A stretch of DNA of 64,000 nt from Paracoccus everestensis (GTDB lineage Bacteria; Pseudomonadota; Alphaproteobacteria; Rhodobacterales; Rhodobacteraceae). The stretch covers positions 533,001 through 597,000 of the forward strand of contig NZ_CP090836.1 of the NCBI RefSeq assembly GCF_021491915.1, read 5' to 3'. The translations under genes were made by a program, and so were the position numbers. This document shows positions 24,600-27,436 of this stretch, one piece after another. Under the pieces are notes generated by a model. The model saw nothing but the letters and a program-made list of their open reading frames with translations. It did no database searches and was not told the origin of the DNA. How positions within the stretch are numbered: position 1 is the first letter of the stretch; every line of letters starts with the position of its first letter.

Positions 24600-25085
24600 A
24601 TGACCGATCCCGACGTGACCGATCGCATCTGGGCCATGGCCGACAAGCTGGACCCGTGCATGTTCGTGACCCGCGACGGCGACGGCCAGCGGGTCCGCCC
24701 GGTCTATGCCCGCGTGCGCCGGGACGAGGGCGCGATCTATATCCTGTCCGACATCCAAGGCTGCAAGCTGGACCAGATTCAGGCGAACCCCAATGTCTCG
24801 CTGGCCTTTTCGGACGAACGGGCCAACGATTACGTCGTGATCAACGGCACGGCCGAGGTGCGCCACGATCCCGAAAAGGCGCGCGATGTCTGGCGTTTCA
24901 GTGACGAGACCTTTTTCAAGTCCCCTGACAACCCCGACCTGCGCGTCATCGCCGTCACGCCTGTCGCGGCGGAATTGTGGGACGGCAGCAACCTGCTGAT
25001 CACCGGGGCGAAGATGCTGGCCGACCGGCTGGTCGGGACCAAGTCGGAACTGGTCCAGAACGCCAAGGTGGACCGGCTGGACTGA
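24600..25085 (+). CDS. Pyridoxamine 5'-phosphate oxidase-family (general stress protein 26-like) flavoprotein
   Basis: 161-residue split-barrel protein that probably binds FMN or F420-like flavin. It has the N-terminal strands CMFVTRDGDGQRVRPVYAR, then AIYILSDIQGCKLDQIQANPNVSLAFSDE and DYVVINGTAEVRHDPEKA, typical of the general stress protein 26 group; substrate is unknown. The ATG at 24600 has a perfect GGAGGAAA ribosome-binding site. It follows the UbiH-like gene by 59 bases and ends 42 bases before the guanidine riboswitch. Confidence 0.88.
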   Translation: MTDPDVTDRIWAMADKLDPCMFVTRDGDGQRVRPVYARVRRDEGAIYILSDIQGCKLDQIQANPNVSLAFSDERANDYVVINGTAEVRHDPEKARDVWRFSDETFFKSPDNPDLRVIAVTPVAAELWDGSNLLITGAKMLADRLVGTKSELVQNAKVDRLD

Positions 25086-25127
25086 CGAGCCTTGACCCCG
25101 GGGCCGGCGGTCCTATCTTTCCAGGCA

Positions 25128-25173
25128 GAGGACGACCTCCCCGCGATGGGCCGGAACGCCGGGACGACCCGGC
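25128..25173 (+). promoter_or_regulatory. Guanidine-II (mini-ykkC) riboswitch
   Basis: Two short hairpins with identical ACGA tetraloops closed by G-C pairs: GAGG-ACGA-CCTC (25128-25139) and GCCGGG-ACGA-CCCGGC (25158-25173), 18 bases apart, ending 16 bases before the sugE ATG. Tandem ACGR-loop hairpins are the defining feature of the mini-ykkC/guanidine-II class, in which guanidinium binding to the loops brings the hairpins together and frees the ribosome-binding site. The linked gene encodes an SMR protein of the SugE/Gdx guanidinium exporter type, the usual partner. Confidence 0.85.
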
Positions 25174-25189
25174 CAGCATGAGGTTCGTC

Positions 25190-25504
25190 ATGGCTTGGGT
25201 CTATCTTGTTCTTGCCGGTTTTCTGGAAATCGTCTGGGCAACGGCGATGAAGCAATCGGCCGGTTTTACCCGCATCTTTCCTACCGCGGTCATGCTGGTC
25301 AGCATGATCGCGTCCTTCTGGCTGCTGGCGGTCGCGATGCGGACGCTGCCGCTGGGCACATCCTATACCGTCTGGGTCGGGATCGGGGCCGTGGGCGCGT
25401 TTCTTTTCGGGATCGTGCTGTTCGGAGAGCCGGTGACCACAGCGCGCCTGATTGCCGCTGGATTGATCGTCGCCGGCATCGTCACGATGAAACTGGCATC
25501 CTGA
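25190..25504 (+). CDS. sugE: SugE/Gdx small multidrug resistance protein, guanidinium exporter
   Basis: 104-residue inner-membrane SMR protein with four hydrophobic helices. The conserved membrane glutamate is Glu13 in AWVYLVLAGFLEIVWATAMKQS; the W-A-T/G-K pattern after it and LPLGTSYTVWVGIGAVGAFLFGIVLFGE are those of SugE/Gdx rather than drug-exporting EmrE. Gdx proteins exchange guanidinium for two protons. The upstream guanidine-II riboswitch supports this substrate directly. I start at the ATG at 25190, using the ATGAGG at 25178-25183 as ribosome-binding site; that ATG is itself an in-frame alternative start (4 residues longer). Confidence 0.93.
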   Translation: MAWVYLVLAGFLEIVWATAMKQSAGFTRIFPTAVMLVSMIASFWLLAVAMRTLPLGTSYTVWVGIGAVGAFLFGIVLFGEPVTTARLIAAGLIVAGIVTMKLAS

Positions 25505-25597
25505 CATGCGGAAACGAACCGAAAACGCAGGCATTCGGCAATTTCCTTCCGTCCTCAACGGTGCTAGAACGCCTGCCAGCCAAAGGAGACTCAAGCC

Positions 25598-27436
25598 ATG
25601 CCCGCCTATCGTTCCCGCACCACCACCCACGGCCGCAACATGGCGGGCGCGCGCGGCCTGTGGCGGGCGACCGGGGTAAAGGACAGCGACTTCGGCAAGC
25701 CGATCATCGCCATCGTCAACAGCTTTACCCAGTTCGTGCCGGGCCATGTCCACCTCAAGGATCTGGGCCAGCTTGTCGCCCGAGAGGTCGAGGCCGCGGG
25801 CGGCATCGCCAAGGAATTCAACACCATCGCGGTCGATGACGGCATCGCCATGGGCCATGACGGGATGCTGTATTCGCTGCCCTCGCGCGAGATCATTGCG
25901 GATTCCGTCGAATACATGGTCAACGCCCATTGCGCCGACGCGATGGTCTGCATCAGCAATTGCGACAAGATCACGCCGGGGATGCTGATGGCCGCGCTGC
26001 GCCTGAACATCCCCGTGGTTTTCGTTTCGGGCGGCCCGATGGAGGCCGGCAAGGTCGTCCTGGAAGACGGCCGCGTCAAGGCGCTTGATCTGGTCGATGC
26101 CATGGTGGCCGCCGCCGACGACACGGTGTCGGACGCCGATGTGGAAACCATCGAACGGTCTGCCTGCCCGACCTGCGGATCCTGTTCCGGTATGTTCACC
26201 GCCAATTCGATGAACTGCCTGACCGAGGCGCTTGGCCTCGCGCTGCCCGGCAACGGATCGACGCTGGCGACCCATGCCGAGCGCAAGCGCCTGTTCGTCG
26301 AGGCCGGGCACCTGATCGTCGATCTGGCCCGGCGTTACTACGAAGGGGACGATGCCAGCGTGCTGCCGCGCGCCATTGCCTCGTTCGAGGCGTTCGAGAA
26401 CGCGATGACCCTGGACATCGCGATGGGCGGGTCCACCAACACCGTGCTGCACCTGCTGGCCGCGGCGCATGAAGGCGGCATCGACTTCACCATGTCCGAC
26501 ATTGACCGCCTGTCGCGCCGCGTGCCGGTCCTGTGCAAGGTCGCCCCCGCCAAGGACGACGTGCATATGGAGGATGTCCACCGCGCGGGCGGCATCATGG
26601 GCATCCTGGGCGAACTGGACCGCGCCGGCCTGCTGCACAGGCAGGCGGGCAGCGTCCATGCAGGTTCTCTGGCCGAGGCATTGGACCGCTGGGACGTGAT
26701 GCGCACCGATGCGGCATCCGTCCACGACTTCTACCGCGCCGCGCCGGGCGGGGTGCCCACGCAGGTCGCGTTCTCGCAGGACCGCCGTTACGATTCCGTC
26801 GATACCGACCGCAAGGGGGGCGTGATCCGCACGGCGGACCATGCGTTCAGTCAGGATGGCGGGCTGGCCGTGCTGTATGGCAACCTGGCCGAGGATGGCT
26901 GCATCGTGAAAACGGCGGGCGTGGACGAATCCATCCTGAAGTTCGAGGGGCCGGCCCATATCTTCGAAAGCCAGGACGACAGCGTCAGCGCCATCCTGAC
27001 CGGCAAGGTGAAGCCGGGCGAGGTCGTGCTGATCCGCTATGAAGGTCCGCGCGGCGGGCCGGGGATGCAGGAAATGCTGTATCCGACCAGCTATCTGAAG
27101 TCCAAGGGCCTGGGCAAGGCCTGCGCGCTTGTCACCGACGGGCGCTTTTCGGGCGGATCGTCCGGCCTGTCGATCGGCCATGTCTCGCCCGAGGCGGCCG
27201 AGGGCGGCACCATCGGCCTGGTCGAACAGGGCGACATGATCCGCATCGACATTCCGAACCGGGTAATCCACTTGGATGTGGACGATGCGACCCTGGCCGC
27301 ACGCCGGGCCAAGCGTGATGCGGAAGGCTGGAAGCCCGCCAAGCCGCGCCAGCGCCAGGTTTCCACCGCGTTGCGCGCCTATGCCGCCTTGACCACCAGC
27401 GCGTCGCGCGGCGCGGTGCGGGTCATTCCCGAATAA
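25598..27436 (+). CDS. ilvD: Dihydroxy-acid dehydratase
   Basis: Fe-S enzyme (612 aa) that dehydrates 2,3-dihydroxy-isovalerate and -methylvalerate in valine and isoleucine synthesis. Cluster and active-site motifs are [13 protein letters not shown] and [40 protein letters not shown] is the second signature; all cysteines are present and length is that of the family. A good AAGGAGA ribosome-binding site precedes the ATG. It is followed by a strong 9-base-stem hairpin (27457-27485). It appears monocistronic. No other ilv gene is in the window. Confidence 0.97.

Follow-up and report, generated by a model that had tools for sequence, protein, structure and literature searches.

The window analysed here is a stretch of 64,000 nucleotides from Paracoccus everestensis. 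On its plus strand, a gene for an SMR-family exporter is preceded by two short hairpins, called P1 and P2, whose loops both read ACGA and are both closed by a G-C pair. The features discussed below are as follows.

25092-25119, plus strand: promoter-like site, TTGACC (25092-25097) and TATCTT (25114-25119) with a spacer of 16, from a sigma-70-type scan
25124-25172, plus strand: probable Guanidine-II riboswitch aptamer, span of the Rfam match (RF01068, 32.8 bits, gathering score 32)
25128-25139, plus strand: hairpin P1, GAGG ACGA CCTC, 4 bp, read directly; stem kept in 66 Paracoccus SMR leaders
25131-25139, plus strand: proposed anti-Shine-Dalgarno strand GACGACCTC, formed by the P1 loop with its closing G and by the P1 3' arm; pairs with 25180-25189
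25140-25157, plus strand: P1-P2 linker, 18 nt, read directly
25140-25150, plus strand: possible small linker hairpin, CCC GCGAT GGG, from 13 leaders and a shuffled-linker comparison
25158-25173, plus strand: hairpin P2, GCCGGG ACGA CCCGGC, 6 bp, read directly and from Paracoccus leaders
25180-25189, plus strand: Shine-Dalgarno GAGG (25180-25183) with the spacer TTCGTC behind it, the proposed target of masking, from the sequence, pairing controls and a 13-leader fold
25190-25504, plus strand: SMR-family exporter gene of the Gdx/SugE kind, 104 amino acids, from PF00893, PDB matches and NF008512.1 (below its cut-off)

The exporter matched PF00893 with 100.8 bits (Pfam gathering score 23.7), and its best PDB matches were 8vxu (1e-29) and 6wk5 (4.9e-29), both of which we take to be chains of the guanidinium exporter Gdx-Clo; EmrE-type chains followed at 5.8e-15 or weaker. 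The alignment with the best chains is gapless over residues 1-103. Residues 10, 13, 16, 42, 59 and 62, which presumably line the substrate site of Gdx-type SMR proteins, are G, E, W, S, Y and W, and the chain matched at 4.9e-29 differs near this site at residue 60 only. Compared with the Gdx-Clo and SugE/Gdx branch, the putative exporter keeps the site residues but lies below the SugE equivalog cut-off (NF008512.1, 114.9 bits against 126), although this model was its best NCBIfam match. With that reservation, the nearest solved relatives bear out the SugE/Gdx identity that a sequence-only reading of the window had given the gene, and the comparisons support a place in the Gdx/SugE branch of the SMR family with predicted guanidinium transport. 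The upstream neighbour resembles PPOX-class oxidoreductases, below the cut-offs, and the downstream neighbour is ilvD.

The same reading had described two G-C-closed ACGA hairpins of 4 and 6 bp, an 18-nt linker and 16 nt (25174-25189) between P2 and the exporter ATG, all of which can be read directly from the letters. It had also proposed a check with the Guanidine-II covariance model, and when this was run, RF01068 matched at 25124-25172 across all 48 model positions with 32.8 bits, a thin 0.8 above the cut-off of 32 (E = 0.0093 for 64 kb, both strands and 4227 families; 2.9e-5 for a 201-nt stretch). P1 is short relative to the model, and the alignment leaves two model pairs unpaired there. 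No other Rfam family matched in the window at gathering scores, and the match was the single one for RF01068 in the whole 2.96-Mb genome. The loose pattern GGACGRCC-N8-35-GGACGRCC had 3 exact matches in that genome, against 23 for a backwards control, and the covariance model matched only the one in the window.

At E 0.001, RF01068 matches were present in 52 of the 295 family genomes (41 above the cut-off); at E 0.01, a threshold that takes in matches below the gathering score, 84 of the 125 genus genomes had one (58 were above it). Two ACGN hairpins were present at 139 of 144 RF01068 loci, the five left out for want of a hairpin pair by the finder being L069, L135, L136, L137 and L141; among the remaining 47 loci, the family and genus samples have two in common (L001 and L076). 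The genes that follow the 139 two-hairpin loci are 90 SMR, 42 PACE, 4 urea-amidolyase-associated and 3 others. Removal of L133, L134 and L140, with another or no recognised downstream gene, and of L060, with no usable start, gave a set of 135 leaders (89 SMR, 42 PACE and 4 urea-amidolyase-associated). For 66 distinct Paracoccus SMR leaders, the consensus fold from RNAalifold consists of P1 and P2 alone, and 4 of its 8 pairs carry changes on both sides; the hairpins are therefore conserved as structures and not as sequence alone.

Taken together, these results make it very probable that the element in the window is a Guanidine-II (mini-ykkC) riboswitch. As such it is ordinary, a further case of a known class at a place where the field would expect one, and it points to a probable substrate and a probable inducer of an exporter labelled by annotation models as a quaternary ammonium pump.

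In the region 24950-25650, the promoter-like site was the one sigma-70-type site found, against 0.1 expected from shuffles. Of the 135 leaders, 93 have a CTTG 36-40 nt ahead of P1 (67/89 SMR, 26/42 PACE, 0/4 urea-amidolyase-associated), compared with 1.0-1.9% at control positions, and both promoter elements are present in 41 of the 135, compared with 0.0000 at control positions. The fixed distance of the promoter-like element from P1 implies that the riboswitch lies at the 5' end of its transcript. Counted off by the usual promoter-to-start spacing, the transcript probably starts near 25126, about 2 nt before P1.

A scan of the plus strand from 24950 to 25650 found no terminator-like sites. 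The sequence-only reading had suggested control at translation, and the position of the element, the terminator scan and what PMC9561414 says of the class all agree with translational ON control. We infer guanidine binding by the riboswitch and the direction of control from this evidence, and we consider the whole, a Guanidine-II riboswitch that turns on translation of the exporter, to be likely.

We also asked which strand might mask the ribosome-binding site. The ATGAGG that had been suggested as a masked site lies at 25178-25183, its GAGG (25180-25183) 6 nt before the ATG; a masking strand had not been named, and the 3' arm of P1 together with the P1 loop makes the best candidate. Positions 25180-25189 form nine pairs with 25131-25139, with one bulged U. 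Of the control gene starts (328 in all, from ORFs of at least 200 amino acids in the window and the fetched loci, with the start picked for the best Shine-Dalgarno), 2 pair this strongly, both of them among the 85 with a Shine-Dalgarno of four or more. GAGGT is also a plain Shine-Dalgarno sequence.

The pairing recurs in close relatives. In the 13 nearest leaders (protein identity of at least 82%, the next leader being at 77%), the ribosome-binding strands are GAGGTTCGTC, GGGGTTCGTC, GGGGTCGTC, GGGGTTGTC and GGGGTCGTT, and all 13 rank 0.024 or better for pairing with the P1 strand. RNAalifold folded these leaders into a helix of the ribosome-binding site with the P1 strand, the linker hairpin and P2, replacing P1. 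In the same alignment, 97.4% of the cells of that helix pair and P1 is 100% paired; thus, both of these mutually exclusive structures are kept. Because the ACGA loop of P1 is invariant in the 13 leaders, the helix has no both-sided changes there, and the observed measures were equalled or exceeded in 73 of 500 shuffles. When transcripts were started 0, 2 or 4 nt before P1, pairing of the Shine-Dalgarno with the P1 3' arm was at least 0.47 in 10 of the 13 leaders, the window leader lying outside the 10.

Folded by itself, the window leader gave no stable answer. Over 15 choices of ends, the same pairing spanned 0.00 to 0.98, and the best fold for it also took up bases that precede the probable start. 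When the start was set at P1, the mean of 18 choices was 0.27 for the P1 3' arm, 0.22 for the linker and 0.11 for downstream sequence. Folded alone, a 130-nt leader had a z of 0.60, a weaker fold than the average shuffle. A local start-codon hairpin, CAUGA/UCAUG, is part of the ON fold of the window leader, and its 5' arm is absent in several of the 13 leaders.

In the wider sample, the helix is absent from the consensus fold of the 66 genus leaders and so is not general in the genus. The P1 strand ranked at 0.05 in 38 of the 135 leaders and at 0.01 in 19 of them; after thinning at 80% identity, the counts were 17/86 and 6/86. The P1 3' arm reads CCTC at 81 of the 139 loci, and the P2 3' arm does so at 1 of the 139. 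A general rule in which the weaker hairpin pairs with the Shine-Dalgarno gave a rank correlation of 0.46 over 86 representatives; we dropped it because stem length goes together with arm composition and the group with the longer P1 had no clear preference (5/18 for P2, 3/18 for P1).

We therefore put the chance that the P1 3' arm and loop mask the Shine-Dalgarno at about even. Slightly below even, in our judgement, stands the fuller proposal that in this Paracoccus clade the ribosome-binding site repeats the P1 5' arm (GAGG) while its spacer complements the P1 loop, so that it would compete for the P1 3' arm and a single strand would serve as aptamer and expression platform by strand exchange in P1, at the extreme 5' end of the mRNA and with no separate anti-Shine-Dalgarno.

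The strongest competitor keeps the same riboswitch but places the anti-Shine-Dalgarno in the P1-P2 linker, as proposed for E. coli in PMC9094411 and PMC9300104, and we regard it as a minority possibility. Several folds of the window leader from P1 onward pair the linker sequence GAUGGGCC with GGUUCGUC while P1 stays closed, and one relative, L083, favours linker pairing (0.69). However, the helix in the window needs three G-U pairs, and RNAalifold did not choose it in the 13 nearest leaders, among which the linkers vary. The E. coli gdx/sugE riboswitch likewise has two G-C-closed ACGR hairpins, a short linker, an SMR exporter and proposed translational ON control, according to the same two papers; in the window, by contrast, P1 is only 4 bp, and its 3' arm and loop make the better candidate strand.

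The second competitor would mask the Shine-Dalgarno with the P2 3' arm or with a stem overlapping P2. For Gloeobacter violaceus, a riboswitch of the same class, PMC5486947 suggests a stem over the aptamer and the ribosome-binding site that cannot coexist with the folded aptamer. That stem overlaps P2, whereas the one proposed for the window overlaps P1. Some relatives do fold by way of P2 (L074, L142 and L143 at about 0.75, L107 at 0.60), but the 6-bp P2 of the window stays formed in most folds, and its arm pairs with the ribosome-binding site no better than in 9.8% of control starts. We consider this arrangement improbable for the window.

In Pseudomonas aeruginosa, again with the same class, guanidine-dependent ribosome initiation has been shown and mutants back a P0 helix in which sequence 5' of P1 masks the Shine-Dalgarno (PMC9561414). 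A transcript start near 25126 would leave no room for a P0 helix of this type, since almost no 5' flank remains, and even with a 15-nt flank supplied, flank pairing averaged 0.03 in the 89 SMR leaders; we hold such a mask to be highly improbable here. The weakest alternative, chance hairpins in a GC-rich leader with no regulation, can appeal to bare words that are not rare in the genome and to an RF01068 score near the cut-off, but the conservation of the element before SMR genes of the genus, the both-sided stem changes and the fixed promoter distance reject it, leaving it scarcely credible.

Returning to masking by the P1 strand, the switch could work as follows. The transcript would probably begin no more than about 2 nt from P1. 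As long as guanidine is absent, the ribosome-binding strand GAGGU(U)CGUC would take the P1 loop and 3' arm (GACGACCUC), ousting the P1 5' arm, which is also GAGG, and a helix of up to 9 bp would then enclose the Shine-Dalgarno. Once guanidine is present, P1 would re-form, its ACGA loop forming a kissing contact with that of P2 around two guanidinium ions; this re-formation would free the ribosome-binding site and turn on translation of the exporter. The kissing dimer with two guanidinium sites comes from published structures (PMC5486947), and a guanidine-dependent translational response has been described in P. aeruginosa (PMC9561414). We infer two of the steps, the transcript start and the P1 strand as mask.

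The Guanidine-II papers that name a place for the anti-Shine-Dalgarno put it in the linker, the 5' flank or an overlap with P2 (PMC9094411, PMC9561414, PMC5486947 and PMC9300104, all in the portions compared). A P1-strand mask is not among the places named in those portions, which does not by itself make it new to print. If confirmed, it would be a variation of the platform. If the strand exchange is true, the riboswitch would be a very small complete translational one, with about 64 nt from the probable transcript start to the ATG and a ligand hairpin that doubles as the anti-Shine-Dalgarno.

The linker itself may hold a further small element. A 3-bp CCC..GGG hairpin directly after P1 is 100% paired in the 13 leaders, and the Rfam consensus line for RF01068 is without it. 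This mini-hairpin was present in 107 of 181 distinct linkers (38 when shuffled) and, among 47 representatives at 70% identity, in 20, with 10.3 expected and 2 of 1000 shuffles reaching that number. We looked for covariation at its first pair in 110 leaders with XCC..GGX, where 82 first pairs were Watson-Crick and the maximum in 5000 swaps was 72; among the 47 representatives, the excess was not significant (reached by 1315 of 5000 swaps), and for this hairpin we claim enrichment only.

Among relatives, the finder saw a single ACGG hairpin in leaders L207, L217, L224, L233 and L248, and a hairpin pair within 110 nt was absent at 8 of 80 loci of one set of relatives. Single-hairpin leaders are possibly degraded or divergent switches. 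At L134, a Guanidine-II-like pair scoring 28.2 bits, below the cut-off, precedes a gene of the sodium/calcium exchanger family (PF01699); this pair may be due to chance.

Guanidine-II elements also stand before genes for PACE transporters (PF05232, chlorhexidine efflux) in Rhodobacteraceae relatives, at 42 of the 139 loci (L003 and L038 included). These 42 were assigned by tblastn to one member, two examples scoring over the PF05232 and NF033664 cut-offs. PACE genes accounted for 27 of 54 family-sample matches and 16 of 92 genus-sample matches; no PACE match was found in the genome of the window. Starting from the transporter instead, a PF05232 match was present in 30 of 120 family genomes, and 17 of the 30 loci fetched have a hairpin pair upstream (2 of the 30 being without a tblastn match). 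A literature search by title and abstract opening found no paper that joins a riboswitch or guanidine with PACE or chlorhexidine efflux, and in PMC12186494 and PMC9045395 the shared words were confined to reference lists. What PACE proteins do physiologically is called unsettled in PMC9045395. If confirmed, Guanidine-II elements before PACE genes would suggest guanidine, or compounds resembling it, as natural substrates of PACE transporters.
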